From NCBI GenBank assembly GCA_947632005.1, contig CANRNU010000005.1:20084-84083 (forward strand): DNA of 64,000 nucleotides. Direction: 5' to 3'. Position numbers and translations under genes: made by a program. Below the pieces are notes generated by a model. The model saw nothing but the letters and a program-made list of their open reading frames with translations. It was not told the origin of the DNA and made no database searches. Below, piece by piece: positions 28,443 through 57,988 of this stretch; position 1 is the stretch's first letter; each line of letters starts with the position of its first letter. Origin of the DNA: an uncultured Oscillospiraceae bacterium. Its GTDB lineage: Bacteria; Bacillota; Clostridia; Oscillospirales; Oscillospiraceae.

Positions 28443-29771
28443 TCATCTTGTCCTTTCTTTTGTTCGTTGTTTCTTCCGGGCGTCCGCCTCCAGACGGCGC
28501 TCAGTCATGAGAAGGTCGTACAGCCGCGGAGACTTATTCAAAATGCGCTCCGCCGTACGAAGCTTTTGGCGCAGGGGCGTGATCCGTCGGGTCACTTCCC
28601 TGCGCCGTGCTTTGTTTTCCGCCTGGTCCTCCGTGGACTTCGGGCAGCGTATCCGGTTGCTGATCTTGTCCCGCTCCCTTTCCAGAGCGGCGATCTCTCC
28701 CTTCGTTTGGTTTACATAAGATTGCAAATCTGCGACGGTGTGCAGCCCGTTCTCTCGCAAAAAGTGGTGGTCCGCCACATACCGCTCCAGGTTCCGGGCC
28801 TCGTTCCGCAGCTCCGCCGAGCGTATCGCGCTCTCCCGGGCCATCTTCAGAAGCAGGATCATCACATAGAACATGGCCTCTATGAACACCTCCACGCCGT
28901 CCCGGCTGTGGCCGATGTCAAAGTCCAGCTTCTTCAAAAGGTCGTCCAGCGGATATTTGTGCTTTACGGTTGGCGGCTGCCGCCAGATCGGTTCCTCCCG
29001 GTTTTGGATGAACACGGCGGTGACGCGCTCCACGGTGAAGCCGATACTGTCCAGCCGCACAGGCCGCTTCCATCCCGGCGCTATGACTGTCACGTGCTTA
29101 TACCCATCGGTCCTGTTCAGGGTATAGCCTTTTGCCCGGAGGCTGGTGTACAGGTCCTCCATCTTCCGGCAGTACGGCAGGACCTCCCGCACATCGTTGG
29201 CCACCGCCTCCCGGTGGGACTTTCCGTAGTGGCTGTAGAAGTCCGCGTTTTCCAGCACGTCCTTGCCCCGCTCCCGGCAGATGGCGTCGGAGATGCACCG
29301 CAGCTCCAGGTGGCTGCCGATCTTATTGCGGAATTTCAGCCCATCCTTGAATGACACGCTGTTCACCACGAAATGGTTGTGGAGGTTGCCGGTGTTCAGG
29401 TGGGTCGTGACCACCACCTGGAACCGGCCGCCCCACATCCGCCGGGCCGTCTCCACGCCGATGGCATGTGCCTCCTCCGGTGTGACCTCGCCGGTCACGA
29501 AGCTCTGATAGCCGTGATAGGCCGCCACGGCACCCCGGTCTCCAAACCGCCGCTTAACCGCCATCATCTGGGCATAGGCGTTCCGTTTGGAGCAGTTTAC
29601 GCCGGACACATAGAGCCGCCGGTCCGTCTTGCCGTCGTTCTCGGCGTAACGGAGGGCGACGTACAGGTCCGCGTCCAGAAACTTGGCGTCCGTGGTCTTG
29701 TCCGGATTGGCGGCGTAGTCGATGACCTCCTTCAGCCGGCCCTTTACCGGCCAGAAGCCTGTGGTGGCCAT
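28443..29771 (-). CDS. Relaxase/mobilization nuclease (MobP-like)
   Basis: VVTTHLNTGNLHNHFVVNSVSF histidine motif; YGKSHREAV. Confidence 0.9.
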   Translation of the reverse strand: MATTGFWPVKGRLKEVIDYAANPDKTTDAKFLDADLYVALRYAENDGKTDRRLYVSGVNCSKRNAYAQMMAVKRRFGDRGAVAAYHGYQSFVTGEVTPEEAHAIGVETARRMWGGRFQVVVTTHLNTGNLHNHFVVNSVSFKDGLKFRNKIGSHLELRCISDAICRERGKDVLENADFYSHYGKSHREAVANDVREVLPYCRKMEDLYTSLRAKGYTLNRTDGYKHVTVIAPGWKRPVRLDSIGFTVERVTAVFIQNREEPIWRQPPTVKHKYPLDDLLKKLDFDIGHSRDGVEVFIEAMFYVMILLLKMARESAIRSAELRNEARNLERYVADHHFLRENGLHTVADLQSYVNQTKGEIAALERERDKISNRIRCPKSTEDQAENKARRREVTRRITPLRQKLRTAERILNKSPRLYDLLMTERRLEADARKKQRTKERTR

Positions 29772-30055
29772 TGTGTCTCCTCTCCCGGCGCGATCAGCTT
29801 TTCCATATCAGACATGAGCGCAAGGGCGGCGGCGTTGACCTCCGGGGAGAAGGGCTTTTCCGTGAGGGCGTCCAGCTTCTCAAAAAGCGCGAAGAAGGCA
29901 TCGGGCAATACCATTCCCGGCTTATAGTCCAGCGCCCGCCGGCGGATATATTCCGCGGCGGAAAGGCCGCAGTCCTTCGCAAGAGCCGTGATCCTTCCCT
30001 TGTCCCGGTCCGATACCCGCAGATACAGCCGGTTCGGTTTTTCCCTTATATTCAT
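29744..30055 (-). CDS. MobC-like mobilization accessory protein
   Basis: NRLYLRVSDRDKGRITALAKDCGLSAAEYIRRRALDYKPG; overlaps relaxase start. Confidence 0.75.
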   Translation of the reverse strand: MNIREKPNRLYLRVSDRDKGRITALAKDCGLSAAEYIRRRALDYKPGMVLPDAFFALFEKLDALTEKPFSPEVNAAALALMSDMEKLIAPGEETQWPPQASGR

Positions 30056-30136
30056 ACACATTCCCCCATTCTCAAAATTAGGCGTAAAAGCTGTCAACAG
30101 CAGCAGGCGCGGAAGCTATCCTGTCGGCGGGGTATT

Positions 30137-30209
30137 AGGGGCGAGCCCCTAAAGGGGACCGCGGGCGACAGCGCCCGCGGTCCATCGGAACTTGTGCCGT
30201 ACAAGTTCC
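30137..30209. other. Candidate oriT: three consecutive perfect inverted repeats upstream of mobC/relaxase
   Basis: AGGGGC-ga-GCCCCT (30137-30150); GGACCGCGGGCG-acag-CGCCCGCGGTCC (30156-30183); GGAACTTGT-gccgt-ACAAGTTCC (30187-30209). Confidence 0.5.
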
Positions 30210-30359
30210 CTGCTCGTTACGGTGTGGGACGCGCCCCGCGAGGGAATACGGCCGTTCCGGCGCGGCTCACACCGACGTTCGTGGTCTTATCCGAAGGTGC
30301 CAGAGCCGGCACCGGGCAATGCCGCCGGCGGTGCCAAAATCTTTCGTTTTCGGCACACA

Positions 30360-30680
30360 TCAGAAGGAATCCAGAAATTCCAGCAAAGTATCCTCGCTTT
30401 CGGCCTGTTCCATCGTCTCACCGACAGGAACCGACGCCGTTTGCGGGGATGGCTGTGCTACCATGATCTGAACGCCCTTCAGTTCCGCCCGGACGGTCTG
30501 CGCCAGCCTTTCCAGAAAGGCGTCCTCCCGCTCCCGCTGTGTCAGCGCGTCCTCATAGGCGTTGACCGCCTGAATGATGACGCTGTTCTTGGAACGGGTG
30601 ACGCCCTGCAGGTACTCCCAGGCCCGGCGCTCCTCCTCCCTGTCCATGTTGAAGCGCAGATTGAGCCGCCGGACGCTCAT
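30360..30680 (-). CDS. Small ParR/StbB-like partner of ParM
   Basis: MSVRRLNLRFNMDREEERRAWEYLQGVTRSKNSVIIQAVNAYE; 4-nt overlap with parM-like gene. Confidence 0.55.
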   Translation of the reverse strand: MSVRRLNLRFNMDREEERRAWEYLQGVTRSKNSVIIQAVNAYEDALTQREREDAFLERLAQTVRAELKGVQIMVAQPSPQTASVPVGETMEQAESEDTLLEFLDSF

Positions 30681-31597
30681 GCGCCGCTCCGCCGCATGAC
30701 TACCTCCGCCATATACTCGTACCCCTGGGCGGCGGCGCACACGTCCTCGTCAATGAACACCCGGCGCGGGTCATAGTCGGCAAAATTCTTCACCAGGCAC
30801 CCGCCGCCTCCGACCACATAGAGGTTCATCAGCTTCGGGTCGTACTCATGCTCCCGGAGCTTGCGGAAAATGCCCTCGGCATACGCCTTCGCGGTGGCTG
30901 TGATGGTTTCCAGATACGCCCCGTCGATGTCCGCTGTCCCGGTGCGCAGTACCCGGTCAATCACGGAATCGTCAATGGCGGCGTGGTGCTCACGCATGAC
31001 GTTCTCCCGGACCTGCAGCACGCATTGATGGGTGCCGTATTTCTCGGTGAACATCCGCCGCATGTCCGGCTTATGGTCCGTGATATACATGACGTTCATA
31101 GTGCCGTTTCCAATGTCGCAGAGCATGTTCACGCCCCCGAAGTCCCGCAGCCTGTCCGCCACGGCGGCAAAGCCCTGGGGGAATATTTCGGCTCCGGCGA
31201 AGCGGACGCGGTAGTTTACGCCCCGATAATAGAACTCCGCTCCCTCCCGCTGGAGCAGATACTCCTTAAAGGCCGCTTTCTGGCCGGACACCCAAGTGAG
31301 GGGCAGGCCCACCGCCAGATACACGGTGGCCTCCGTGCGCTGGACCAGGCGAAACTCACTGGCGATAGCGGCCAGGGTGAGCACGTAAAAGTCCTCGTCC
31401 TTCATCTTCTCCGGCGTGAACTCCTTGTGTCCCACACCGATGGTGTAATACTTGCCCTCCCACACCAGCAGGTCGTGGGTAAAGGCGGGCACCGTGTCGC
31501 TCTTCAAAAGGCCCGTGGGGAACACGCAGTTGGCCGTCTTGATGTTCCCGTAGCCGTGGTCGATGCCGATGATGAGCATGCTGCTTGATTCAATCAT
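30677..31597 (-). CDS. ParM/StbA actin-like plasmid segregation protein
   Basis: MLIIGIDHGYGNIKTANCVFPTG; VNMLCDIGNGTMNVMYI; LYVVGGGGCL. Confidence 0.88.
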   Translation of the reverse strand: MIESSSMLIIGIDHGYGNIKTANCVFPTGLLKSDTVPAFTHDLLVWEGKYYTIGVGHKEFTPEKMKDEDFYVLTLAAIASEFRLVQRTEATVYLAVGLPLTWVSGQKAAFKEYLLQREGAEFYYRGVNYRVRFAGAEIFPQGFAAVADRLRDFGGVNMLCDIGNGTMNVMYITDHKPDMRRMFTEKYGTHQCVLQVRENVMREHHAAIDDSVIDRVLRTGTADIDGAYLETITATAKAYAEGIFRKLREHEYDPKLMNLYVVGGGGCLVKNFADYDPRRVFIDEDVCAAAQGYEYMAEVVMRRSGA

Positions 31598-36442: not shown

Positions 36443-39400
36443 TTACCCCACCATCAGCTTGTTGGTCTTCTTCAAATACTTCGCCGGGATGGGGGCATCC
36501 AGCTTCCACGTGATGTTCATGGGCCGGGAGCCCTCATGCTTGACATAGCTCGCCGTGCCAAGATACGTGTACGCCGCCGCAGTGTTCAGTATCCGGTCCG
36601 ACTTAAACTCCCTGACAAACAGAAGCACACGGCTCCCCTGCTCTCGGTGATGGATGTACCGCTGTCCGGTGGCTGAGTTCTCCGCCGTCGTGCTCTGGCT
36701 CTGCCAGTGGAACAGCTCGCTGTTAATGGAGTAGTCGTTGTACATCGTGGTCGGCGAATAGTCCTTGTCGGCCTTATTGAGCGTCACGAAGAACACATCC
36801 AGCTTCTTCTCCGACAGCCACTTCACACCCTCGCGCACGGTCGCCGGCTTCATAAAGTCCAGCGCCAGCAAAATCTGGTCGCGGGTATATGTACAGTGCA
36901 GGTCCAGGGGACAGTTAAAGCCCACATCCACCGGCGCGTCAATGAAGTCGATATGGTCATACTGATACTTCAACAGTTCCATGAGCTCGCCCAGCATGAC
37001 CGGCGAGTCCGCAAGGGAGCGGAGATCGGCCCGCACCTCCTCGCTGTTCCAATCCTCCGCCGCCTTCAGCCAGATGCTCACATAGAGCATCTGCATCATG
37101 CGCTGCTCGACGGGCGCCATTGCCGCCACATCCACGTCGCCTATCCGCGGCAGCACCTCCAGCAGAAATGCTATCCACCGGCGGGAATCAATGGTCGCCA
37201 GCCGCGGGAAGGCCTTTTTCATGGTCTCCTCCGCAGGCTCTGCGAAACCCTCTATCACATCCGCCCGCGCGCACAGCCGGGAGAAGGTCTCAAATTTATA
37301 GATGGAGCGCGGGACGATATGGTAATAGTCCAGGAAGTTGGCCAGTGTCAGAGGCCGTCCTGTATCCTCCTCAAAGCTGGCGATTCGCGCGATGAGGCCC
37401 GCACTGTTCCCATAGGACGCCCGGATGTTGTCCAGGATGTACTTCGCCGCCTTCTTCTCCAGCTGGACGTAGCATCCCTTGGGAAGTGATACGAACCCGT
37501 CCTTGATCTCCCGGCTAACGCTTCGCGTCGTATTGGAAAGCAGCGCCGAGAACTTGTCCTCAAAATTATACTTCCTGTTTGCCTGGCCAATGAAATCCAG
37601 CACGGTCAGGCATTCCTTATTCTCCGCCAGGCGGAGGCCGCGGCCAAGCTGCTGCAGGAAGATGGTCAGCGACTCGGTGGGCCGCAGGAACAGCACCGTA
37701 TTGACCTCCGGGATGTCCACGCCCTCGTTGTAGATATCCACCACGAAGATAAACCGGATCTCCCCGTCGATGAGCTTTTTCTTGGCCGTCTGCCTCTCCT
37801 CATCCGGGGATTTACCGGTCAGGAATATGGACGGGATGCCGTGTTCATTGAAATAGTCCGACATGAACTGGGCATGCTCCACCGTCACGCAGAAGCCCAG
37901 CCCCTTCACATCGTCGATGTCCGTGACGTATTTGAGCAGTGACGACACCACATGGTCCGCCCGGCGCTTGGCCACCATCCCGCTCAGGGTGTAGAGATTA
38001 GACAGCTCACTCCTGTCATACCCGCCGGCAGACCACCTCAGCTGGTCCAGGTCCACCGTGTCCGTCACGCCAAAATACTGGAACGGGCACAGAAGCTTTC
38101 GGTCAATGGCCTCCGGCAGCCGTATCTCCGCGGCGATACGATTGTTGAAATACGGCAAGATGCTCTTGCCGTCCATTCGCTCCGGCGTCGCGGTCAGGCC
38201 CAGAAGGATTTTGGGCTGGTAGTAGTCGAGCAGCATCTGGTACGTCGGGGCTGCCGCATGGTGGAACTCATCCACGACGATGTAATCGTAGAAGTCCGGC
38301 GAAGTCTTCTCCGTAAACTCTTGGGAGTTGAACGTCTGGATGGAGATGAACAGATTATCGATGCTTTCAGGCCGGAAGCTGCCCACAAACATCTCGCCGA
38401 AATTGGCGTCCTTCAGCACCGCCCGAAACGTATACATGCTCTGCCGGAGGATCTCCTCCCGGTGGGCAACAAACAACAGCCGGCAGGGCTTTTCTGGGTT
38501 CTGCCTGCGAAACCGTTTATAGTCCAGCGCCGAGATGACCGTCTTTCCCGTGCCGGTGGCCGCCACCACAAGGTTTCTGGTGTAGCCCCGCACGGAGCGC
38601 TCTGCATTCAGCTTGTCCAGGATCTCCTGCTGGTAGGAGTAGGGCAGAATGTCCAGGGTATAGGCCTCGGCATTGTTGCTGTCAAAGTACTTTTCCGCCT
38701 TCAGCGCCCGGGCCAGCCGCTCCTTCTGCCCCTCATCGTAGTACTCAAACTCGTTGGAGTTCCAGTAGCTCTCAAATGTCGCGGCGATCTTGTCGATGGT
38801 CTCCGGCAGGTCGCTTTTCGTGACCTTCACGTTCCACTCCAGCCCGCTGGACATGGCGGCGTTGGACAAGTTTGATGAGCCCACGTAGGCCGTGGTGAAG
38901 CCGGTATCTCGATAGAACACATATGTCTTGGCATGCAGGCGTGTCCGCTTCGTGTCATAGCTGACCTTGATCTGGGTGTTGGGCAGTTGGCGGAGCTCCT
39001 CGATGGCCTTCACGTCGGTGGCACCCATATAGGACGTGGTGATGATCCGCAGCGTACCGCCGCGCTGGGTAAACGCGGTAAGCTCATCCATGATGAGGCG
39101 CAGGCCGCTCCACTTGATGAAGGAGACCAGCATATCGATCCGGTCGCTGGTGACGATCTCCTTTTTCAGCTCGGTATACATCTGCGGCTCATGCACCGCG
39201 CCGGTGAAAAGGGAGCTCTGCGCGATGGATGTCACGGGCCGGATGATTTCCGCTTTCTCGTCCAAGGCAAACATGCTGTTTTGCCTATCCAGGAGCGCGA
39301 GAAGCTGCTCCGCGCGCTCCGCCACAGTGAGCTCATCGAAGCCGGCCTCGGATGTTTCCGCGATGATCGTGGAAACGATGCGGTTGACCAGCTCCACCTG

Positions 39401-39598
39401 AGAGTTTACATCGCCGCCATTGTCCTGGACATTTTCAAGGCCTTTCTCCACCACGGCGGCCACATACTTTGCCAGGACCTTTGCCGCCTCCGCAGCGTCA
39501 ATGGGCGCGGTCTGGCTGAGCTTGTCTGTCGCGGCAAGCTCTCTATCCAGCGACTTGTTGATGACCTGTTCGTATATCCCGTTGTGAAGCATGTTCAT
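36443..39598 (-). CDS. PLD-nuclease + DEAD/DEAH helicase + DUF3427 protein
   Basis: HAKTYVFYRDTGFTTAYVGSSNLS (HKD); VVAATGTGKTVISALDYKRF; VVDEFHHAAA; TATPERMDG; QQLGRGLRLAENKECLTVLDFIG. Confidence 0.88.
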   Translation of the reverse strand: MNMLHNGIYEQVINKSLDRELAATDKLSQTAPIDAAEAAKVLAKYVAAVVEKGLENVQDNGGDVNSQVELVNRIVSTIIAETSEAGFDELTVAERAEQLLALLDRQNSMFALDEKAEIIRPVTSIAQSSLFTGAVHEPQMYTELKKEIVTSDRIDMLVSFIKWSGLRLIMDELTAFTQRGGTLRIITTSYMGATDVKAIEELRQLPNTQIKVSYDTKRTRLHAKTYVFYRDTGFTTAYVGSSNLSNAAMSSGLEWNVKVTKSDLPETIDKIAATFESYWNSNEFEYYDEGQKERLARALKAEKYFDSNNAEAYTLDILPYSYQQEILDKLNAERSVRGYTRNLVVAATGTGKTVISALDYKRFRRQNPEKPCRLLFVAHREEILRQSMYTFRAVLKDANFGEMFVGSFRPESIDNLFISIQTFNSQEFTEKTSPDFYDYIVVDEFHHAAAPTYQMLLDYYQPKILLGLTATPERMDGKSILPYFNNRIAAEIRLPEAIDRKLLCPFQYFGVTDTVDLDQLRWSAGGYDRSELSNLYTLSGMVAKRRADHVVSSLLKYVTDIDDVKGLGFCVTVEHAQFMSDYFNEHGIPSIFLTGKSPDEERQTAKKKLIDGEIRFIFVVDIYNEGVDIPEVNTVLFLRPTESLTIFLQQLGRGLRLAENKECLTVLDFIGQANRKYNFEDKFSALLSNTTRSVSREIKDGFVSLPKGCYVQLEKKAAKYILDNIRASYGNSAGLIARIASFEEDTGRPLTLANFLDYYHIVPRSIYKFETFSRLCARADVIEGFAEPAEETMKKAFPRLATIDSRRWIAFLLEVLPRIGDVDVAAMAPVEQRMMQMLYVSIWLKAAEDWNSEEVRADLRSLADSPVMLGELMELLKYQYDHIDFIDAPVDVGFNCPLDLHCTYTRDQILLALDFMKPATVREGVKWLSEKKLDVFFVTLNKADKDYSPTTMYNDYSINSELFHWQSQSTTAENSATGQRYIHHREQGSRVLLFVREFKSDRILNTAAAYTYLGTASYVKHEGSRPMNITWKLDAPIPAKYLKKTNKLMVG

Positions 39599-40185
39599 TC
39601 CTCCGCCTGTTCCACGTCCCCGCTCTCCACCAGCTCCCGATACCGGAAGCACTCCTTCACGTGGTCGTTGATGATCCCGCAGGCCTGCAGGTGGGCATAG
39701 ACGGTCACGCTGCCGATGAACTTCATGCCCCGCTTCTTCAGGTCTCCGGCGATGCGGTCGGAGAGTTCGTTGGACGCCGGGATATGGCCTAACTCATGCC
39801 CTTTATAGAGCATCGTCTTCCCGTCGGTCCAGCCCCAGAGATAGTCCGAAAACGTGCCAAACTCCGCCCGGATGCGCTGGACGCACCGGGCGTTTTTGAT
39901 GACCGCCTCGATCTTCCGCCGGGAGCGGATCATGCCGGGCGCGGCCATGATGCGCTCCACATCCTCATCGGTGTAGGCCGCCACCTTGTCATAATCGAAC
40001 CCGTCAAAGCAGCCCCGGAATATCTCCCGCTTGCGCAGCACCGTGTCCCAGCTCAGGCCGCACTGCATGGCCTCCAGCATGAGAAACTCAAACTGCTTGC
40101 GGTCGTCATGGACCGGCACGCCCCACTCCTCGTCGTGGTAGCGTGTCTGCCGCTCATTCATCAGGCACCAGGGACATCTCTGCAT
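39595..40185 (-). CDS. tag: DNA-3-methyladenine glycosylase I
   Basis: RCPWCLMNERQTRYHDEEWGVPVHDDRKQFEFLMLEAMQCGLSWDTVLRKRE; KRGMKFIGSVTVYAHLQACGIINDH. Confidence 0.92.
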   Translation of the reverse strand: MQRCPWCLMNERQTRYHDEEWGVPVHDDRKQFEFLMLEAMQCGLSWDTVLRKREIFRGCFDGFDYDKVAAYTDEDVERIMAAPGMIRSRRKIEAVIKNARCVQRIRAEFGTFSDYLWGWTDGKTMLYKGHELGHIPASNELSDRIAGDLKKRGMKFIGSVTVYAHLQACGIINDHVKECFRYRELVESGDVEQAEE

Positions 40186-40870: not shown

Positions 40871-40899
40871 TTGACAACTCTTCGCTTTTGTGGCAGAAT
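40871..40899 (+). promoter_or_regulatory. SigmaA-type promoter ahead of S-box-like leader
   Basis: TTGACA-17 bp-CAGAAT. Confidence 0.65.
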
Positions 40900-40904
40900 A
40901 ACAG

Positions 40905-40991
40905 CGACCTATAAAGAGTGCGCGAGGGACAAGCCCTGTGACCGCACAGCAACCTGCCGCCGGCAAGGTGCTAAAGCTTGATCGATAGGGC
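40905..40991 (+). ncRNA. S-box/SAM-I-clan riboswitch aptamer (P4 apparently reduced or absent)
   Basis: CCTAT-AAAGAG-[GTGCG]-CGAGGGACAAGCCCTGTGAC-[CGCAC]-AGCAACCT-GCCGCCGGC-AAGGTGCTAAAGC...ATAGG: P1, kink-turn P2 and P3 all form; near S-box consensus. Confidence 0.75.
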
Positions 40992-41006
40992 AGGATAACG
41001 GCAACA

Positions 41007-41035
41007 GCCCCATCGAGACGATGGGGCTGCTTTTT
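41007..41035 (+). terminator. Riboswitch expression-platform terminator
   Basis: GCCCCATCG-aga-CGATGGGGC then TTTTT; 5' arm is 8/9 complementary to CGATAGGGC (40983-40991), which includes the P1 3' strand. Confidence 0.8.
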
Positions 41036-41073
41036 CGCTCTTTATGGGATCTTATCTGTAAGGAGCCTGTATC

Positions 41074-41445
41074 ATGGAAAACACGACTGATCAAACCACC
41101 ACCCCGAAGAAGCAGTACATAAGCGAAGGGCGGGTGCACGCCTTTCTCATCTGCGACCACTCTCTCACCGACAACAGCGCAGAGTTCTATGACTGGCTGG
41201 ATGACGAAGGCTTCACCTTCGGCGGCCGCAAGGGCAATTATGGGGTCTGTCCCTGGTGCTATGCGGACATCACGCGAAAACTCTATGCTTTTGGGATGCC
41301 GGGCGTTCAGGTCGTCCCGGCCATCGGCGGCCACGCCATCACCGTCGATGAATTTAAGACGATCTACGCCATCTACAAGAAGTATGAGGGTAAGGAGATC
41401 TTCACCTTCCACACCAGTCGGTTTGATTATGACGCATCGGATTGA
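41074..41445 (+). CDS. Unknown 123-aa protein with CPWC motif, riboswitch-controlled
   Basis: AAGGAG RBS; MENTTDQTTTPKKQYISEGRVHAFLICDHSLTDNSAEFYDWLDDEGFTFGGRKGNYGVCPWCYADI. Confidence 0.75.
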   Translation: MENTTDQTTTPKKQYISEGRVHAFLICDHSLTDNSAEFYDWLDDEGFTFGGRKGNYGVCPWCYADITRKLYAFGMPGVQVVPAIGGHAITVDEFKTIYAIYKKYEGKEIFTFHTSRFDYDASD

Positions 41446-41523
41446 CAAACCGACGCCTCTGTGACACGATGATATGAAAAGATCCGCGCGGGATAACGCG
41501 GAAAGCACATAAGGAGGAGCAAA

Positions 41524-42480
41524 ATGATACGCTGTAATTTTAGTAAAGTACGCGAACGGGACATGGATCTGCTTTTTATTCAGGCGTTCATGTCAGACCC
41601 TGGTTTTGCAGAACTCGTGGTCAGTGAAACGAAGTTTTCATACCGCCCATTCTCCATTGTAAAGGCCGAACTTTCTCAATCCATCGGTGACCTTGGCGAG
41701 ACTGACATCATCTTTGTCATAGAAGCATGCGGCGTGCGTCATGGGCTTCTCATCGAGGACAAGGTCGATGCGCCGGCTATGCCGGATCAGTATGAGAGAT
41801 ACATAAAGCGCGGGGCGTGGGGTATAAACCATGGCGAGTTTGCAGATTTCTCCGTGTTCATCTTCAGCCCGGAAAAGTACCACGAATTGAATGAAGAGGC
41901 CCAGAAATACGATCATTTCATTTCATACGAGCGGTTCCTGAAGTATTTTGGCGGGAAGGACGACACAATCAGCATCATGAGAAGCCAGCAGCTTGCCCAA
42001 GCCATTAAAAAGGCGAAAAGGCCCCCGACTGCCGACCTGGATCAAGCAGCAAACGCCTTTTTTGTGAGATACAAAGAATACCAGAAGAGATATTTCCCCT
42101 CCCTGAACTGCACCACAAAGGAAACGTCGAACGGCTGGTGGCCGCACTATCCGACCCGGTTGGGAAACGTGTATCTGTACCACAAGATGCAGGAGGGATA
42201 TGTCGATCTGACATTCTCCAATGCGGCACGGGAACTGCCTGCCGTTGAGAAGTTGGCCGAGTGGCTGGAGGACCACGGCATATCCGGCGCCAAGGCAGTA
42301 AAAACCGGCATGGCAGGCGCAGTACGGATCGTCGTCCCAAAGCTGCATGTGCAGGAGCCGTTTGAGAATGCGAGCGAAGAGGATCTGCGGGCTTGCTTTT
42401 CCGCCATTCAATCTCTGGTGGAATTTGCGAACATCGCGGAGCTTGCAAGCTCAATCAGCGCACTGAAAAGGAACAAGTAA
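41524..42480 (+). CDS. PD-(D/E)XK-superfamily nuclease
   Basis: GDLGETDIIFVIEACGVRHGLLIEDKVDAPAMPDQYERYIKRG (D...ExK). Confidence 0.75.
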   Translation: MIRCNFSKVRERDMDLLFIQAFMSDPGFAELVVSETKFSYRPFSIVKAELSQSIGDLGETDIIFVIEACGVRHGLLIEDKVDAPAMPDQYERYIKRGAWGINHGEFADFSVFIFSPEKYHELNEEAQKYDHFISYERFLKYFGGKDDTISIMRSQQLAQAIKKAKRPPTADLDQAANAFFVRYKEYQKRYFPSLNCTTKETSNGWWPHYPTRLGNVYLYHKMQEGYVDLTFSNAARELPAVEKLAEWLEDHGISGAKAVKTGMAGAVRIVVPKLHVQEPFENASEEDLRACFSAIQSLVEFANIAELASSISALKRNK

Positions 42481-47057: not shown

Positions 47058-47396
47058 AAGGATGCCTCCAGAAGGAGATCTTGGTTAATTTAAGCATGTC
47101 ACCAATTCATTATATTCTAAAATCCTCGTTATGTATAGCCCAAATAGAGGTACGTGCTGTAACCTATGTATTGTTTTCAAAATTGATTCGCTTACGGCAA
47201 CAGCGAACCTGGATTGCTATGTCAAAATGCCGGCAGCGGCGATAGCGGGTGTGATTCCAATACTCCCTTGTGAGTAATAGCTGTGCGTGGTATAATGTCA
47301 AATATTGATAGAATTGTGGTTTTTAAGTAAATGATCTAAACACCCATGAAGTATCTGTCAGATGATGATCAAACCGGCCATATAGGGGGGGAGCAC

Positions 47397-48980
47397 GTGG
47401 CGTCGCTAACGCATGTCTGCATGTGGTCAGACAACAGTTGGAAGCCAATTACAGCCGAACAAGCTGCAAGACTGCATCCAGGCGGGACAGTATCTGCACA
47501 TAGTGGTCTGTTTATGTGTGACCTCTGTGGTCAATATGTCACTCTTACTGACGGTGATATCAGAATACGGTATTTCAAGCACAGTGCCTCCGAAAAAAGT
47601 AAGGATTGTCCTGAACGTACATTTGGTGCTGGGTATTCAATCTCTTATAACCCCAGGGAACATGCTTTGCCGATCCGTATTACGGATGTATCCTCAACTT
47701 CGTTCAGATTTGAAGTTGGCCTAATTCGTGCTCCAGTAGCTTTCCTCAGCAAAGGTTTTCGCATAGAAATCAAGCCAAAGGGAGTTCCTGGCATATCATA
47801 TGTGTTTAATAGAGAGCGACTGAATTGCGACCACATTACATATCTTCCTATCGGAGAAAGGCCATTTGAAAAATACACTCTCAGTTTTCAGGGTGGAGAC
47901 GGCATATTAAGCGAGTTTTGGCCAGCAGAAATCAATGGTATTGATCCAGATGGGACGTTATTTGAAACGGCTTCGGGCAAGAAGCTTACATACGATGCCG
48001 ATGTCGAGATCGGGAAGGAATACTATCTGTTAAAGCGAGGCCGTATCTGTAAGAGTTCATGTGGCAGTGTGCAAATACGACAAATCACTCAAAAACTCTT
48101 TGGTTGGAATATGTGGTCCCTTTATGTTGTTTCCGTATCTGCATTTGATGAGGATGCCGCACGTTTCTATCTCGACCTTCATTGCCGCTTAACAGATCAT
48201 CCCGTTTCACTACAACCAGTGTGGCCGCTATATGTGGAAGGCAATTATATAATAAAGCATAATCACAACAAGATGTTTATTCTTGTTGATGGCAATATAG
48301 CCGCAGTCAAGACTTTTCCCACTGCGACAGTACATGTACTAAATGACAGAACAGCCAGAGAAAAATTATATGAAGTGTTCTGCTCCGGCAGACAGCAGTT
48401 AATATCCGCAGGCCGCACTCACACCCTGCAATATACTTACTTTTGGAAAGAACCCCTTAATCAAGAGGGGTCACTTCCAACCATTTCAGTAACCGATACT
48501 GCCGGTATCGAGATGGCTCCTGGCGAAGCCACTTCTCTACCGCCCAAAAGAATTCTGTGCTTTAAATCAACCTATGATAGCACGATTATTATTTCCAATA
48601 ATGATCATGTTATAGACAAGCGAACAGTTCCTGCAGACAAATATATTGAGTTGGGCGACCTATCTTTCGGTTTTAGTGTGCAAGTTATTATTGGTCTTGA
48701 TGCTATATGGCAAATTAGATTTAAGAAACACCAGTTAGATGTTGCGGATGACGAAGATGAGCTATTAAAGCAATTAACAAATGTGTCAGGAATATACATT
48801 CCCGTCCCACATTCCATACGAAACATATTGGCAAGGATGAAACGCTATCCTAAAATATGCCAATGGATCAGAAAATGTATAAATAATGGCACTATCAATG
48901 AGCAATCATATCGCAGGTTGCAAAATGCCTACCGTCGCATGAACACAAAAGATAAGGAGATACATTATGAATTACATTGA
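47397..48980 (+). CDS. Unknown protein, first gene of four-gene helicase operon; N-terminal CxxC (CoiA-like) patch
   Basis: GTG 47397 behind GGGGGGAG (ORF opens at 47346); LFMCDLCGQYVTLTDGDIRIRYFKHSASEKSKDCPERTF. Confidence 0.65.
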   Translation: MASLTHVCMWSDNSWKPITAEQAARLHPGGTVSAHSGLFMCDLCGQYVTLTDGDIRIRYFKHSASEKSKDCPERTFGAGYSISYNPREHALPIRITDVSSTSFRFEVGLIRAPVAFLSKGFRIEIKPKGVPGISYVFNRERLNCDHITYLPIGERPFEKYTLSFQGGDGILSEFWPAEINGIDPDGTLFETASGKKLTYDADVEIGKEYYLLKRGRICKSSCGSVQIRQITQKLFGWNMWSLYVVSVSAFDEDAARFYLDLHCRLTDHPVSLQPVWPLYVEGNYIIKHNHNKMFILVDGNIAAVKTFPTATVHVLNDRTAREKLYEVFCSGRQQLISAGRTHTLQYTYFWKEPLNQEGSLPTISVTDTAGIEMAPGEATSLPPKRILCFKSTYDSTIIISNNDHVIDKRTVPADKYIELGDLSFGFSVQVIIGLDAIWQIRFKKHQLDVADDEDELLKQLTNVSGIYIPVPHSIRNILARMKRYPKICQWIRKCINNGTINEQSYRRLQNAYRRMNTKDKEIHYELH

Positions 48981-51732
48981 TCTTCTTACCCCGGAAGAAA
49001 AAGACACCCTCTGCAAGATCATCACTGGCCGAGAGTTCAAAGAACTTTTTAAGAATAACGAGCGAGAGTTCCAAAAATTACGAAAGGGCTTTCGGGCTAA
49101 ATCCTTGACAGAGCAGTTTGCGTTGTCTACTGCTATGTCCAACGTCGACAAGCCTTTTATCGCGACGTATATCAATGGGCTAGTAGATATGTGGCTTAAA
49201 GAAATTCAGAAAAATGTAGAGAAGCTTGAAGCGGAAGGATCAACCCATAACGTTGCGTTAGCAACAACAATGCTTGACTCATTTTTTGTCAACAATGTAG
49301 ATTTATACCTCAAGCTCACGGGCAAAGCGTCTGATATGGATACTTGCTCCGCAATTCTTGATAGAATGACAAGTATCAAATCTGAGCGCAAGAGAAATGA
49401 AGAAACAGCTAATCAAATCAGAGCTATAGAAGAAGAAAAACGCCAGTTGTATGATCAGCTTAAAGAGGTGCAGCAGAATGCTAATACTATAAGAACTGAG
49501 TACGAGCGAAGAATCCAAGAAGTTGAACAAGAGAATAGCACATTGACCTCTCAACTGACTGAGGCGCAAGAGAAAATCACAGAATTACAAACTGCTCCTG
49601 CCAAAATTACTAGCGAAGATGTAGATTATCTCGCACAGTATGATGATACCGACGCTACTATTCTACACGCCGTAAGTAATGATGAAATCGTTTCATTGTG
49701 TGGTGTTATCTCAGATTATAATGGCCAAAAATGGCTTATGCGGTATGCTGACCTAAGTAATAACGGGCATTATCATGTTTTTCACAAACGGGAAGACACC
49801 CCATCATACTTCACCAATCGGGATAAGATATTTTATAAAGATGGTCCCTCTAACGATGGTTTCTATGGCATTTGGACTTGGTCCGCGATACCAAGCGAGA
49901 AGGACCCATCAAAAGATTATATTATATCCCGATATAAACCTGATCTTAATGCTATTGAAGTCGCTGTTATAACTAATACGTCAGACCTTGATAGTCTGGT
50001 AAACCAACTGAAGTCCGGAATTGAATACATACCTCACAGTCGTAGGATCATGTTCTCTTTTTGCTCATCGAAAGGGATGTATACAGGCATTCTATGTAAC
50101 TGTGATGAACTCAATAGTATTAATGGAAAGATCTCCTTTTCTGAAGGTTGTGCTGTTGTTCCTATATATGTGTTCCCCAGTGATAATATAATGCGTTTGG
50201 ATAATGGGCTTTCCTTCTACAAAAACGCATTTGCGGGAACGCCAGACAAACTCTACCATTTAAAAACCCCTCTTGAAATTGTAAAAAGCATCGTTACCTC
50301 ATCAATCTCCTGGCCCACATATAAAACAAGGGGAATCATACGTGCTGATTACAGAACTTTTAAGGATTTCCTCTGTGCGATCCCGGTCGATGATATAACC
50401 CGCCAAATTGAGACTGCATGCCATTGTTCCAGTCCTGCTGCAAAAGCATTGCTGGAAGAATTCCTGAGCACAGCCAAGAAATATGTTGATGGAAATAGCT
50501 TAGAAGACGATATAATCCTCTCTGCCATTTCTGCAAGTGCCGAGCTTCAGGAGAGAGCAAAAACACTGATCCGCGCAGATTGGGAAACTGAGAACAAGGG
50601 CTTACTGGCTGACGCCCAAGAAAAGCTCAAAGCACTTGACGGAAAAATAAATGACGCTACCACCCAGTTAGCTGAGGCTCAAGAGGAACTTAATAAGACT
50701 AAATTGGAAGAAGATCGCCTTACTGGCGTCATAGCAGAAAAGGAAAAACTTGCTGAAGATGTTGAAAAGGCAGTATCTGAAAGAATCCAGCAAGCACGTA
50801 AGCATGCGGCCGATTTCATTGCAAACATGGCATTTGTTACTGGTCAACAGATACAACTTTCAGTTGATGTGGATTCTGCCGCAAACAAAGTTGCCTCTGA
50901 TCCTGTTGTTGCCCAATATCAGGTGTTTTCTCCTTATGAAGAACTTAGCGACCTTGAGGCACATCATTCTTGGGCAGACGTGATTGATACAGCTACATTT
51001 GAGTTTGGGGAAGCAGGAGTTACAGAGCAATATAGAAGAGGCTTAGCTGCTTTCCTTTGTGCTGCTTTTATTGAGAAGCAACCAATTTTCCTTGTTGGCC
51101 CTAATTCACTTGATATTGTTCAAGCGTTTTGTGCATCCGTAAGCGCTCACAAATATGGACTGCTATGTTGTGAGGGCAACTATGACAATAAAGTAACTTC
51201 GAGAATTGGTGCCACTGGCGAAGACATTGTGATAATCAATAACCTTCTCTCAAGCAGATGGATGAACCGGCTTCCTGAGATTGTCTTCAATAAGGACATA
51301 TTTTATGTCGCTACTCATCCATATGCAGAGGACATTCAAGTTGAGCCTCAGAGCCTGTATGGATTTGTGCTTCCGCTGTTCACAGAGTTCTTTGTGGACA
51401 AAACAGCAACCGGCAAATACTATGGAGGTTATTTTGCAGATGACTTCAAGCCCTATTCAGCGCCAAAGGGCATACATAAAGAACCGAAAGTCCTCTCAAG
51501 CTTATCCATAAGCTCTTTCGTCAAGAACAGAATCAACAATCTTGTTACTACGATGCATGGCATTTATCCAAGCACAACAGCAGATGACGAATTCTTGTTT
51601 TCCGTCTTTCCCATTGCTTATGCGTCACTGGAAGTTGAAAAACTTGTAGATGCAGTTGCCGATCCACAGAAAGGTTTTACAATTTCTGCAAACCTAAAAC
51701 GTGATCTGCGCCATGTAATGGGAGACGTTTAA
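48967..51732 (+). CDS. Coiled-coil protein with degenerate AAA-like C-terminal region
   Basis: Long coiled coils; FLVGPNSLDIVQAFCASVSAHKYGLLCCEGNYD lacks a canonical GKT Walker A. Confidence 0.65.
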   Translation: MNYIDLLTPEEKDTLCKIITGREFKELFKNNEREFQKLRKGFRAKSLTEQFALSTAMSNVDKPFIATYINGLVDMWLKEIQKNVEKLEAEGSTHNVALATTMLDSFFVNNVDLYLKLTGKASDMDTCSAILDRMTSIKSERKRNEETANQIRAIEEEKRQLYDQLKEVQQNANTIRTEYERRIQEVEQENSTLTSQLTEAQEKITELQTAPAKITSEDVDYLAQYDDTDATILHAVSNDEIVSLCGVISDYNGQKWLMRYADLSNNGHYHVFHKREDTPSYFTNRDKIFYKDGPSNDGFYGIWTWSAIPSEKDPSKDYIISRYKPDLNAIEVAVITNTSDLDSLVNQLKSGIEYIPHSRRIMFSFCSSKGMYTGILCNCDELNSINGKISFSEGCAVVPIYVFPSDNIMRLDNGLSFYKNAFAGTPDKLYHLKTPLEIVKSIVTSSISWPTYKTRGIIRADYRTFKDFLCAIPVDDITRQIETACHCSSPAAKALLEEFLSTAKKYVDGNSLEDDIILSAISASAELQERAKTLIRADWETENKGLLADAQEKLKALDGKINDATTQLAEAQEELNKTKLEEDRLTGVIAEKEKLAEDVEKAVSERIQQARKHAADFIANMAFVTGQQIQLSVDVDSAANKVASDPVVAQYQVFSPYEELSDLEAHHSWADVIDTATFEFGEAGVTEQYRRGLAAFLCAAFIEKQPIFLVGPNSLDIVQAFCASVSAHKYGLLCCEGNYDNKVTSRIGATGEDIVIINNLLSSRWMNRLPEIVFNKDIFYVATHPYAEDIQVEPQSLYGFVLPLFTEFFVDKTATGKYYGGYFADDFKPYSAPKGIHKEPKVLSSLSISSFVKNRINNLVTTMHGIYPSTTADDEFLFSVFPIAYASLEVEKLVDAVADPQKGFTISANLKRDLRHVMGDV

Positions 51733-52739
51733 TGGACAAGTATACCGGGCTTCTTTCAGTCATATCAAACCAGTATCACATCAAAAGAGGACTACAAGAA
51801 ACTGAAGAAAGTTGGAAAACACGTCTGATTTATAGCATCTGTGGAATGATGGCTTATGCGGCACTTTGGGATGATCTTGAAGAGCCAATTTCCATTGTGC
51901 ATTTGAAGAAAAGAATCCGCAGCATACTTTCTGCTTACAAATCAATCTACCCTGAGCTTTCCATAAGTTTACCGTATGCCTCCGCAGATCTTGAGGACGA
52001 GATCGCTAACCTATTTCTAAGCACAGGGGTAGTTTATCACCGCCCTAACAGAATCGCTCCATCAATGAAACACGAAGAGTTGTTCAGCGGTATTCTGTTC
52101 CAACGGGGTATTCCACTTGATAACATTTCCCATGTCTCTGGTATTGGGTATTACTCAAAACAAGATGGAGGCACAAATCCAGATAAGATAAAAACAATGT
52201 TCGGCCTTGAGCAAAAGAATCTGCAGCTTTTGTGGCACGAAACATTAACCACTGCTATCTGGAAATCCACTCAGTTTTTTGAACATAACATAGAATATCT
52301 CCGCCTAATGCCTCCATTCACTCGAGGATATTGGATAACCACGCCAGATACTACTGGTGTAGTTTCAATCCTTCGAATCGGAGTAAACGGTTCCCAACTG
52401 TATTATCTTTACCGTTATGCTGGCGCAACACTAGAAGTTAGTCCTCTTCCTCAGTGGCAAGTGGAGTCCTCTCATTACAGAACACTTGCATGCGCCTGTT
52501 TATCAACCTACGGTACATTGGCGCCAATAGAGTTTGCTGAGGATGGTGAATTGACCCATATACGTTTTGGCTATTTGCTTCCTCCCCGCGAACTTGATTT
52601 TTTGAAGCTCTACAGTTGGCCTGAGGAATGCACATCACTCCCAAGCGATTTTAAGCGAAAGCTATCAACAGAAGTCTTTAGGGCTATTAGGGATATTCTA
52701 TCTGATGAAGGATATAAATTTAAAGGAGCGACGATCTGA
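51732..52739 (+). CDS. Unknown 335-aa protein, third operon gene
   Basis: TAATG overlap with upstream gene, TGATG overlap with downstream gene. Confidence 0.65.
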   Translation: MDKYTGLLSVISNQYHIKRGLQETEESWKTRLIYSICGMMAYAALWDDLEEPISIVHLKKRIRSILSAYKSIYPELSISLPYASADLEDEIANLFLSTGVVYHRPNRIAPSMKHEELFSGILFQRGIPLDNISHVSGIGYYSKQDGGTNPDKIKTMFGLEQKNLQLLWHETLTTAIWKSTQFFEHNIEYLRLMPPFTRGYWITTPDTTGVVSILRIGVNGSQLYYLYRYAGATLEVSPLPQWQVESSHYRTLACACLSTYGTLAPIEFAEDGELTHIRFGYLLPPRELDFLKLYSWPEECTSLPSDFKRKLSTEVFRAIRDILSDEGYKFKGATI

Positions 52740-55700
52740 TGACAACTGGAGCTAATTCTGTTCATAAGCAACTGCGGACGGAGTTGGAAGACTATATTAA
52801 ATCGCAGTATTTTGGAAAGTCACCGCTCCTTCTTTCAGCATTAAATAATCATATTGATGACGAAGGCTTGCTCTATCAGAAGCCATTTATTGAGTCATCT
52901 CCTGCATATCTTACAGTACAAAACGGTATTGAAGGAGCATCTATTGAGCCCTGGATGAAAGAGTATTTTTTGCAACTATCTGAGGCGGGAATTGGTGTTT
53001 TCCCATCTCCATTTGCTCATCAGATTACCGCACTTGAAGCTGCGGTCAAAGGAGAAGACCTATTCGTTTCAACCGGCACAGGTTCTGGTAAAACAGAGTG
53101 CTTTATGTGGCCGCTTCTTGCAAAGATGGCAGCTGAGGCAAAAACATCCAAGAAAACGTGGGAAAAACGGGGTATTCGCACAATTATTATGTACCCAATG
53201 AACGCCCTAGTTTCTGACCAAGTTAGCCGACTTAGGAGGATGATTGGAGATCCTGATAAGAAGTTTATCCGGATTTTCAGAAATACCTGCGGTAGTGAAG
53301 TCCGCCGCCCTCAGTTTGGCATGTATACCGGCAGGACTCCGTACCCCGGGGAGCAGTCTTCTCCAGGACAAGACAGAAAACTAGAAAAGACCTTGGCAAG
53401 AATGTCTTTTCCACAGAATGATTCTGAAAAAGAGTTCTTCAGTCATCTTCTCAAGGAGGGAAAGATCCCTGCAAAGGATGATATGAATCTGTTCCTGCGC
53501 GGGCTTCATGAAGGTAGGCATATTCCAAACGATGAGGATGCGGAGTTAATAACCCGCTTTGAAATGCAGCAATTCTGCCCGGACATTCTTATTACGAACT
53601 ATTCCATGCTGGAATACATGCTGCTACGCCCAAGAGAACAGAAAATCTGGGATGATACACGCGAATGGATTAATTCAAATCCTAACAACAAGCTGCTTTT
53701 TGTCATTGATGAAGCTCACATGTATCGCGGCTCATCGGGCGGCGAGGTTGCGTTGCTGATTCGCAGACTTTTCCATAAACTCGGGATTGGCCGGGATCGT
53801 GTACAATTCATACTTACTACCGCAAGCATGCCCAACAAGGATCAACAAGACATTGATTCTGTAATGAAGTTCGCAAATGAACTTACCGCCTCCGACACGG
53901 GTAGTCATTTTCGTTATCTCACCGGTGAAAAAGAGGTCATTGATGGGCAGTTGAAGTATGATATACCAGTTGGGCTTCTCTTAAACTCCGATCCTAATGA
54001 ATTTGAGAACAAGGATGAGGTAAAGCTTTCTGCGCTTTTGTCGTTCTGGCGTCAGCTAGAGGGCTTTGACCAAAGCATCAGCACTCTGGAATCAGTTTGC
54101 AACTGGATGTACGAAAATCTTGTGTATTATCGTCCATTTCATGAACTCATAAGGTATTGTCGTGGAAACGCAGTATCTTTAAGCGAACTGTCTTCTGGCA
54201 TCTTCCCTGATCTCGGTCAAGAAAACGCATTAAAAGCTGTCAGCGTCCTTTTGGCTATGGCACCTCTTGCAAAAAACGATAAGGGCTCTGTTCTTTTCCC
54301 GGCACGCATGCATATGCTTTTTAAAGGTATTTCAGGCGTCTATGCATGTGCAAATGTGGATTGCAGTTGTTCTCATTCTGAAGGAGGCCTTACTTTAGGG
54401 GAGCTCTATTTGTCTGATGGTAATTTGATTTGCCCGCATTGTGGCAGTGTTGTATATGAGCTTTATAACGACAGGCGCTGTGGCGCACTATTCTTCAAGG
54501 GCTATGTCCTTGAAGATGACTCAAATCTTCATGGGAATGTATACCTGTGGCATTACCCCGGTCAGTTAATGGACCACCGGATGAAAGAAGTACATTTATT
54601 TATCCCCACAGATGATTTTGAGTTGCCCGCAAAGCAGGGTAAGAATGTCATAAAGCCATGTTATCTTGATGTCAAGAGTGGGTTTATCAACTTTACAGAT
54701 GATTCTTCCGCCAATAAGCCCTGGATGAGAAAACTATACTACTGCAACTACTCCGCAAAAGGTAGGCCACAAATTATCACCTTCCCTACCTGTCCACATT
54801 GCAGGCATCAGCTTTCCACATTGCAGCTTACATCATTCAGCACTCGAGGGAATCAATCTTTCTTCAACTTAATCCAATCGCAGTTTCAACTGCAACCTGC
54901 CGTACAGGGAAAAGATAGCGATCCTGATCGCTTCCCTAATGAGGGACGCAAAGTTTTACTGTTCTCGGATAGTCGTCAGCGTGCAGCAAAGTTAGCCAGA
55001 GATATGTCTGATGCGTCAGATATCTCCGCCGCAAGGCAGTTGTTCGCGATAGCAATAAAAACAATGGAAGATCAAACTGTCGAGCAATCAATGAATTCGC
55101 TGTACGATTACTTTTGTCTTGCAGCTGGTCAACATCACGTGCAGATGTTCCATGCCCATGAACGTGCGAAGTTCGCAGAAGATTGTGCTTTTGCAATGAA
55201 CAACTATAGACGATGCGCAAGGCGAGGAATATCCTATACTCCGAGATTTACTATCGCAAACGCTCCAGTGCAGATGCAAGAGCATCTTCTTCGATTGTTC
55301 GCTGGTGGCTATAACACCTTGTACGACTCCGCTACAAGTTGGCTTGAACCTACTGATCAAGCGCTCTTTGATGCTATTGATGCTCTTGAAGAAAACAATA
55401 TAATTGTCACTGATGAAGAGTTCATTGAGCTTTTCAATGCCTGGATGCTATCAATCTGTGACATGTATACAGCTATTGGCCATACTATCAATGATTCAGT
55501 TCGTTTAAAAGTTCGCCCAAACTATGGTGGCTATGGCCTTGACAAAGATTGGGAATTTTCAAAAGTCATCCATGAAATCATGGGATGGGGTGACGAAAAT
55601 GAAACCGAGTTGGTTTGGAAACGAGTACTAAAAGAGGCATTTCTTGACTCTGCACAGCCTGATAATGGAAAACTATATGTCGATCTTTCTAGAATAAAAC

Positions 55701-57988
55701 CACGTTTTGATGATGCTCATGTATGGTATAAGTGTGAAAAGTGCTCGGAACTGACCCCCTTTCCCCTAAAAGGAAAATGCCCAAGCTGCGGCTCCGCTCA
55801 TATTCATAAGATGAGCTCAAATGAATACGAAGCACTGGTTTTCTGGAGAAAACCTGTCTCTGACGCTCTCCAGGGTGAGCCAATTCATGTGATTGACACA
55901 GAGGAGCACACTGCTCAGCTCTCGCATAAAGACCAACGTGATGATTACTGGAGCAAAACTGAACAATATGAATTGCGTTTCCAGGACTTGATCCAAGATG
56001 GAGAAACGCCTGTTGATATTCTCAGTAGCACAACCACGATGGAAGTTGGTATTGATATTGGCTCCTTAGTGGCAGTTGGCTTGCGGAATATTCCTCCAAT
56101 GCGTGAAAACTATCAACAACGAGCAGGACGAGCGGGCCGGCGTGGATCCAGTTTATCGACAATAGTTACCTTTTGTGAAGATGGCCCTCACGACACATTA
56201 TATTTTAATAATCCAATTCCTATGTTCCGCGGTGATCCTCGCAGGCCTTGGGTTGATACACAAAGCGAGAAACTTCTCCAGCGCCATTTAACCATGGTTA
56301 TCTTACAGGAGTTTCTCGCGGAAAATCATACGAGCCTTGATACGATTCCTGCCGCACTCTTTCTTGAAGACTACCTTGACAATTTTAAGCGCTATCTTTC
56401 CTCTTACAATATTGACCAGGACAAGTGTCTTCTTCCTGTTGGCACAACACTAAACTATTCATTATTTGAGAGTGATCTTGATCGAGCATTTGATACACTT
56501 AAAGAAAAATGCCGGTCTCATCCTGAGCTTTTTGGTATAGAAGAAGGGGCCAATGAAAGTGACGCAAAGGTTCTCCTGGATGCCCTCTATGAAGAAGGTA
56601 TCATCCCAACATATTCTTTTCCGAAGAATGTCGTAAGTACATACATACCAGATATGAACGGGAAAATCCTTTATGAGGTTGACCGGGGACTCGATGTAGC
56701 TATCGGCGAATATGCCCCAGGTAGAGCAATAGTTGTTGACAAACAAACCTATCAGATTGGCGGATTCTATTACCCTGGAAGTGAACGTCGTCATGGTCAG
56801 GCACTAACTCCGGCACGTTCCTATACAGATGACCCGAATTTTGTAAAGCCAGTTATTTCTTGCGATGAGTGTGGCTGGTTCGGCTTGGCAGAAGAGAAGA
56901 CAACGTGTTGCCCGTTCTGTGGAAACAGCAACCTGAAGACCTCTCGTAAAATGATGCGTCCCTGGGGCTTTGCACCAAGAAACGCTGAATCAATACCAGA
57001 TGCCCAGCTATTGGAAGAATACACCGCTGTACAGCAACCCTTGTATTCAACTCTACCAGATGCAGAAGAAATGAAACTCATCCCAGGGTGTAGAAACATA
57101 AGGATCGCCTCTCGAACAAACCAACGAATCATCATGCTGAACAAAGGTTCTGGTGACAAAGGCTTCATGGTGTGCAAGGATTGTGGTGCTTCCATGCCGG
57201 GTGATGACATTTCCGTTTTGAAGAATATTGAAAGACCATTCAAGTCAAAGTATGCCAGGAGCAAATGTCATCATATCAATTCCTTTAATGTGAATCTTGG
57301 ATATGATTTCATAACCGATATGCTAGTTCTTGAATTCACAATTGATGACAGGGTTATCGACGCAAGTCGAAATAATAATCCCTGGCTCATTCGGGCAGCT
57401 CAATCCTTAGCTGAAGCACTCCGACTAGCCGCTAGCAAAAAACTCGATGTTGAATTTACTGAACTTGTAACTGGTTATCGTCTCAGAACCGGACCTGAAG
57501 CCTCATATGTTGATATCTATCTATATGACAGCCTATCAAGTGGGGCTGGGTATGCGGTCAGCGTAGCTGATACTATTGTCGAGCTACTCTCTGATATAGA
57601 TGGGCTCCTAGGTTCCTGCGATTGCGGATCGGCATGTTCTAAATGCTTAAAACATTATAGGAATCAACATGTACACGGTATACTTGACCGTTTTGCTGCG
57701 CTTCAACTCCTTAGATGGGGTGTTGATGGAATGAAAGCACCTTCTATCAGACCCGATGCACAGATTAACATGATCATGCCTTTAGCAAACATTCTCAAGC
57801 AATCTGGTTGCGAAGTTATTGCTGACGGAGAAGTGATCACTGTATCTAGGCGAAGACGCACAAAGAACGTTGTAATATATCCAGCAATGTGGGTTGAACC
57901 ACATGCCTCCAACACAATTTTTGTGAGTGATGCTTATATTAAGTATGCCAAGCCATATGCTGTTCAAAAGATTCTCGACAACATTTAA
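52739..57988 (+). CDS. Very large DEAD/DEAH helicase with C-terminal DUF1998 (DruE-like)
   Basis: STGTGSGKTECFMWPLL; IDEAHMYRG; TTMEVGIDIGSLVAVGLRNIPPMRENYQQRAGRAGRRG; GSCDCGSACSKCLKHYRNQHVHGILDRFAAL; several Cys4 clusters. Confidence 0.85.
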   Translation: MTTGANSVHKQLRTELEDYIKSQYFGKSPLLLSALNNHIDDEGLLYQKPFIESSPAYLTVQNGIEGASIEPWMKEYFLQLSEAGIGVFPSPFAHQITALEAAVKGEDLFVSTGTGSGKTECFMWPLLAKMAAEAKTSKKTWEKRGIRTIIMYPMNALVSDQVSRLRRMIGDPDKKFIRIFRNTCGSEVRRPQFGMYTGRTPYPGEQSSPGQDRKLEKTLARMSFPQNDSEKEFFSHLLKEGKIPAKDDMNLFLRGLHEGRHIPNDEDAELITRFEMQQFCPDILITNYSMLEYMLLRPREQKIWDDTREWINSNPNNKLLFVIDEAHMYRGSSGGEVALLIRRLFHKLGIGRDRVQFILTTASMPNKDQQDIDSVMKFANELTASDTGSHFRYLTGEKEVIDGQLKYDIPVGLLLNSDPNEFENKDEVKLSALLSFWRQLEGFDQSISTLESVCNWMYENLVYYRPFHELIRYCRGNAVSLSELSSGIFPDLGQENALKAVSVLLAMAPLAKNDKGSVLFPARMHMLFKGISGVYACANVDCSCSHSEGGLTLGELYLSDGNLICPHCGSVVYELYNDRRCGALFFKGYVLEDDSNLHGNVYLWHYPGQLMDHRMKEVHLFIPTDDFELPAKQGKNVIKPCYLDVKSGFINFTDDSSANKPWMRKLYYCNYSAKGRPQIITFPTCPHCRHQLSTLQLTSFSTRGNQSFFNLIQSQFQLQPAVQGKDSDPDRFPNEGRKVLLFSDSRQRAAKLARDMSDASDISAARQLFAIAIKTMEDQTVEQSMNSLYDYFCLAAGQHHVQMFHAHERAKFAEDCAFAMNNYRRCARRGISYTPRFTIANAPVQMQEHLLRLFAGGYNTLYDSATSWLEPTDQALFDAIDALEENNIIVTDEEFIELFNAWMLSICDMYTAIGHTINDSVRLKVRPNYGGYGLDKDWEFSKVIHEIMGWGDENETELVWKRVLKEAFLDSAQPDNGKLYVDLSRIKPRFDDAHVWYKCEKCSELTPFPLKGKCPSCGSAHIHKMSSNEYEALVFWRKPVSDALQGEPIHVIDTEEHTAQLSHKDQRDDYWSKTEQYELRFQDLIQDGETPVDILSSTTTMEVGIDIGSLVAVGLRNIPPMRENYQQRAGRAGRRGSSLSTIVTFCEDGPHDTLYFNNPIPMFRGDPRRPWVDTQSEKLLQRHLTMVILQEFLAENHTSLDTIPAALFLEDYLDNFKRYLSSYNIDQDKCLLPVGTTLNYSLFESDLDRAFDTLKEKCRSHPELFGIEEGANESDAKVLLDALYEEGIIPTYSFPKNVVSTYIPDMNGKILYEVDRGLDVAIGEYAPGRAIVVDKQTYQIGGFYYPGSERRHGQALTPARSYTDDPNFVKPVISCDECGWFGLAEEKTTCCPFCGNSNLKTSRKMMRPWGFAPRNAESIPDAQLLEEYTAVQQPLYSTLPDAEEMKLIPGCRNIRIASRTNQRIIMLNKGSGDKGFMVCKDCGASMPGDDISVLKNIERPFKSKYARSKCHHINSFNVNLGYDFITDMLVLEFTIDDRVIDASRNNNPWLIRAAQSLAEALRLAASKKLDVEFTELVTGYRLRTGPEASYVDIYLYDSLSSGAGYAVSVADTIVELLSDIDGLLGSCDCGSACSKCLKHYRNQHVHGILDRFAALQLLRWGVDGMKAPSIRPDAQINMIMPLANILKQSGCEVIADGEVITVSRRRRTKNVVIYPAMWVEPHASNTIFVSDAYIKYAKPYAVQKILDNI

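Follow-up and report, generated by a model that had tools for sequence, protein, structure and literature searches.

A short form of SAM riboswitch precedes the gene for a 123-aa protein in the 64-kb stretch of DNA analysed here (the window), and this gene belongs to a rare, mostly mobile family that appears to be switched on at cellular SAM shortage. We think it probable that the locus carries a mobile-element transcription switch of the SAM-OFF type, through which a rare accessory protein of mobile DNA is made when SAM runs short, most likely aiding the element or its host at low SAM. Model alignment and covariation confirm at the sequence level that the riboswitch is genuine and of the SAM-I class; SAM binding and the direction of regulation are what we infer from it. 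The elements of the locus are as follows.

40871..40899, + strand: sigma-70 type promoter, TTGACA-17-CAGAAT, its -10 preceded by an extended TG (10/12 consensus matches, consensus only)
40906..40991, + strand: SAM-I riboswitch aptamer without P4 (RF00162; 61.7 bits and covariation in 19 P4-less relatives)
40908-40912/40985-40989, + strand: aptamer P1
40918-40922/40943-40947, + strand: aptamer P2
40926-40928/40934-40936, + strand: aptamer P2a
40930-40933/40977-40980, + strand: aptamer pseudoknot
40948-40958/40962-40972, + strand: aptamer P3
40983..41015, + strand: antiterminator, CGATAGGGC (40983-40991) with GCCCCATCG (41007-41015), which excludes P1 and the terminator
41005..41029, + strand: intrinsic terminator, CAGCCCCATCG-AGA-CGATGGGGCTG followed by CTTTTT (-20.1 kcal/mol)
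41074..41445, + strand: 123-aa protein of a new small family, FLxxD..WL..GF..CxW..I...Y.....HAIT..EFKTIY.IYKKYEG (family alignment)
41524..42480, + strand: 318-aa probable PD-(D/E)XK nuclease (motif and distant homology)

The original prediction, which had also placed the two ORFs correctly, described the leader as an S-box-type riboswitch and proposed a covariance-model scan against Rfam. In a cmscan of the window, SAM (RF00162) was the sole RNA family above its curated score, and the match on the + strand was the best in its clan (61.7 bits, where the gathering score is 44.4; E 6.6e-12), so the description stands with the refinement that P4 is absent. Helix P4 is usual in SAM-I riboswitches, and the model threshold does not demand it. 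In the model alignment of the window aptamer P4 is deleted, as are the P4 columns of related mobile riboswitches, and we therefore regard the RNA as a SAM-I variant. Covariation was examined in 19 P4-less examples, in which 96.5% of the cells were paired, compared with 27-36% in slid controls; 13 of the 26 pairs had changes on both sides, and the covariation score was reached by none of 500 shuffles. Three of the four pairs of the pseudoknot between the P2 loop and J3-4 covary in this set, and the covariation looked for in an RF00162 member was found in P1, P2 with its internal loop, P3 and the pseudoknot. The window RNA thus has in common with SAM-I (S-box) RF00162 the core aptamer, the P2 internal loop, P1/P2/P3, the pseudoknot and a terminator-type OFF platform, but differs from it in lacking P4, in a target outside methionine and cysteine metabolism, and in having its kin on mobile elements and viral contigs. 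The SAM-I/IV variant RF01725, known mainly from metagenome sequences, has a P2 without an internal loop (PMC2864571). It shares the clan and the core with the window RNA, which, unlike RF01725, keeps the P2 internal loop and matches RF00162 best.

The expression platform had been predicted to follow a SAM-off layout, and the pairing on which this depends is present in eight of nine positions, with one A.C mismatch. Its upstream strand contains the 3' strand of P1, and its downstream strand is part of the 5' arm of the terminator; because the P1 3' strand region can pair with this arm, P1 and the terminator on the one hand and the antiterminator on the other are mutually exclusive, as in a SAM-OFF platform. 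The calculated duplex energies are -12.2 kcal/mol for the antiterminator and -20.1 kcal/mol for the terminator. A promoter and a terminator had already been proposed at 40871-40899 and 41005-41029 plus CTTTTT, and both were recovered there, although promoter consensus matches of this quality are frequent by chance. With SAM bound, P1 would form and the terminator would halt transcription at about 41035; as SAM falls, the P1 3' strand would pair with the terminator 5' arm instead and the 123-aa gene would be transcribed, probably along with the nuclease gene at this locus. The order aptamer, antiterminator, terminator is common to four independent lineages, the window locus and three other riboswitch-bearing ones.

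The 123-aa protein had no match in Pfam, NCBIfam or PADLOC, and only weak matches in PHROGs. No curated family of methionine or SAM metabolism in NCBIfam or Pfam was matched as the riboswitch target, which agrees with the earlier claim that the target lies outside the known Met/Cys genes; a role in methionine salvage was rejected for want of a family match. Protein and profile searches found relatives in a genome of the same genus (G026), three rumen Alphaproteobacteria, a Methanobrevibacter, a 37.8-kb IMG/VR contig and the genomes G532, G1201 and G1235, amounting to seven lineages when each is counted once. In G026 the 123-aa protein is 98% identical, and the riboswitch and both genes have 94.8% DNA identity. 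One further candidate relative (L012) was rejected as a chance match to a pilin-type protein, and no protein relative was found among the INPHARED phages and PLSDB plasmids. The protein family occurred in 2 of 35 genomes from the genus, in 1 of 201 from the taxonomic family, in 2 of 399 from the phylum and in 3 of 392 from the class, and the lineage counts given below are small because of this rarity. Its predicted structure has moderate confidence (pLDDT 68), and Foldseek returned nothing below E 0.001 for it, the best weak matches being small uncharacterised phage proteins. In the Methanobrevibacter locus (L011 5917-6633), the gene of the relative matches the window at 90% DNA identity over 42 bases, which suggests gene transfer between bacterium and archaeon.

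The original prediction had pointed to homologues of this gene as the place to look for further SAM riboswitches, and these were found in three further independent lineages. Since the family genes were located through protein search, the riboswitch in front of them is an independent observation. In total, a P4-less SAM-I riboswitch lies upstream in four of the seven lineages: the window locus (with an RF00162 match before the family gene in G026, of the same lineage), the distant Bacillota genome G532 (L023, 49.0 bits), G1235 (L057, 55.7 bits) and a viral contig (L014, 46.6 bits). In G1235 the riboswitch is inside an ICE, where the family gene sits between genes for a VirB4-like ATPase and a VirD4/TraG-like protein, both named from their translations only. 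On the viral contig a Zn-ribbon gene intervenes between the riboswitch and the 123-aa relative, and a C5 methyltransferase is encoded less than 1 kb beyond the relative; near the window locus, motif recognition gave no DNA methyltransferase. The chance of a riboswitch in at least three of the six other lineages is about 5e-9 at the background rate of 1.5 riboswitches per genome and with 2,300 genes assumed, a value to be read as an order of magnitude because the 20 genomes that supplied the rate were no random draw.

In a fifth lineage, that of the rumen Alphaproteobacteria (L008-L010), the family gene comes directly after metK (S-AdoMet_synt_N, E 5.2e-22), its start lying no more than a few bases from the metK end, and, unlike at the window locus, no SAM riboswitch passes the gathering score in these three loci. 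The metK linkage counts as one lineage; one of the three genomes has a second metK, and near relatives of these bacteria have metK without the 123-aa companion. Neither a riboswitch nor metK was found near the family gene in the two remaining lineages, Methanobrevibacter and G1201. Taken together, comparison of the loci shows that the 123-aa family is repeatedly associated with SAM riboswitches or metK, and the aptamer RNA, the switch pairing, their recurrence and the metK linkage are all visible in the sequences.

SAM riboswitches are textbook controls of cellular methionine and SAM genes, and the window genome has one of this kind: its only further SAM riboswitch scores 84.6 bits, retains P4 and is upstream of metK. 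Across 20 Bacillota genomes we counted 30 SAM riboswitches (~1.5 per genome), most of them 97-127 nt long and scoring 72-98 bits, and among those whose downstream gene was read, the majority lie upstream of metK or another Met gene. Six of the 30 are short (85-92 nt, 49-62 bits). Four of these (window genome, G026, G532, G1235) are upstream of the 123-aa family, and the remaining two (G596, G015) are upstream of a second small family, characterised by the motif 'EGFTFGD...DDIMAL', which follows P4-less SAM-I riboswitches in phages and ICEs as well as in genomes and is present in Ruminococcus phage PV036439. Its loci include the following.

L083 1659-2000: second small family
L085 1638-1955: second small family
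L058 4174-4467: second small family
L037 737-1054: second small family
L092-L096, about 3001-3300: second small family

A protein search of viral contigs gave seven loci of this second family, two of them with an identical gene. A SAM-I riboswitch lies just upstream in all six scanned viral loci, a result that carries much weight for the family without being blind, because the profile was seeded with riboswitch-linked members. Several of its loci adjoin C5 and N6/N4 DNA methyltransferase genes, often in convergent orientation. In the structural model of the second family, which is a good one (pLDDT 93.6), strands and helices follow one another as they do in that of the 123-aa protein; comparison of the two profiles was not significant (P 0.07), and neither model had a significant match among solved structures. 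One small fold may be common to both families. When viral contigs were scanned by pattern, in a way biased to the P4-less subtype and hence excluded from the statistics, 18 riboswitches were found, the majority before viral metK genes; L044, L045, L046, L048, L051 and L053 are contigs of this kind. On L050 (357-1605, - strand) the SAM-I riboswitch is followed by a transposase gene, which we take to be ISXO2-like.

That the short SAM-I form recurs on phages and conjugative elements, upstream of small proteins and of viral metK and frequently next to DNA methyltransferases, suggests that SAM is monitored by mobile DNA. A broader proposal, which we offer tentatively and hold at somewhat under even confidence, is that the P4-less SAM-I lineage has come to serve the phages and integrative elements of gut and rumen bacteria as a dedicated control element, which would make at least two small families (the 123-aa and 'EGFTFGD' families, possibly of one fold) and viral metK responsive to SAM, with mobile DNA taking SAM as a cue to methylation capacity or to a competing infection. 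For two protein families an inducing signal is predicted ahead of function, which makes these families directly testable.

The 318-aa protein encoded next at the window locus has a GETD..EDK motif and had no match in Pfam, PADLOC or the PDB. Its distant kin is a protein of the Vibrio plasmid NZ_CP046807 annotated as PD-(D/E)XK nuclease family (27.8% identity over 92% of the 318-aa protein, tblastn E 4e-24). The gene lies 78 bases beyond the 123-aa gene on the same strand. Neither a promoter nor a terminator was detected on the + strand in the gap, and the two genes are probably co-transcribed here. Outside the window this neighbourhood is conserved in G026 only, and in none of the other family lineages is the nuclease the next gene; because it follows the 123-aa gene only in this genus, we place it outside the conserved core.

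The module is located between a type IV-like mREase (mREase_IV, PLD-helicase type; 36443-39652, - strand; PADLOC E 3.4e-234) and a Druantia type I-like cluster (47346-57985, + strand, about 47.3-58.0 kb), in which PADLOC recognised the following.

52739-57985, + strand: DruE1, 1749 aa
51732-52736, + strand: DruD1-like protein, 335 aa
within the cluster, + strand: CoiA-like protein, 544 aa
within the cluster, + strand: 921-aa protein, weak DruC match

In the sister genome G026 the same module lies beside the same glycosylase gene and is followed by a PD-Lambda-2_B relative (L007 7487-8539), with no Druantia there. The mREase and Druantia here and the PD-Lambda-2_B relative in G026 place the module in a variable defence island.

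This setting lends partial support to the metabolite-sensing defence switch of the original prediction, which would be the main rival to the accessory-protein reading. Depletion of SAM, caused for instance by heavy methylation or by the SAM lyase of a phage, would release the switch and lead the 123-aa protein and the nuclease to act against the invader, and the defence genes on both sides, the PD-Lambda-2_B relative in G026, the putative nuclease gene next on the same strand and the C5 methyltransferase gene near the viral-contig relative are in keeping with this. The proposed two-gene defence unit was not supported: the nuclease follows the 123-aa gene in this genus only, and PADLOC matches neither protein. 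Other relatives belong to elements that are invaders in their own right, an ICE and a viral contig. The position of the Alphaproteobacterial relatives behind metK points to SAM economy and not to attack. We therefore consider defence unlikely.

The same metK adjacency would fit an unrecognised protein of host SAM or methionine metabolism, for instance a partner of MetK or a factor for salvage or uptake, that is mobile by happenstance, and the other viral targets of this switch class are mostly metK as well. Even so, the 123-aa gene is missing from almost every relative that has a normal metK, the protein matches no enzyme family or fold, and an ICE and a viral contig are among the carriers of the gene, leaving this explanation improbable. 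Capture of the riboswitch by chance before an unrelated gene, with no regulatory meaning for that gene, would have been permitted by a single genus and by a target that is no known Met gene, but four independent lineages with the riboswitch and intact switch pairing, together with the metK linkage, strongly disfavour it, and we give it very little credence. Under the preferred reading of an accessory protein made at SAM shortage, the 123-aa protein would help at low SAM through SAM supply or the DNA methylation state; whether its task is as a metK partner in the former or in SAM-dependent methylation in the latter is a matter of speculation.

In the open-licence literature searched, none of the papers described a SAM-I riboswitch ahead of these genes. 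A glutamine riboswitch accompanies a tmRNA gene in the methylophage Melnitz, where riboswitches are termed rare in phages (PMC9004378). It is likewise a metabolite riboswitch on a virus, but its ligand and target differ from those described here, namely SAM-I with metK and small proteins as targets. Elsewhere in the window, at 28446-31597 on the - strand, Pfam identified a relaxase of the MobA/VirD2 type and a ParM-like actin; judged by these genes, the segment is what is left of a conjugative or mobilisable element.
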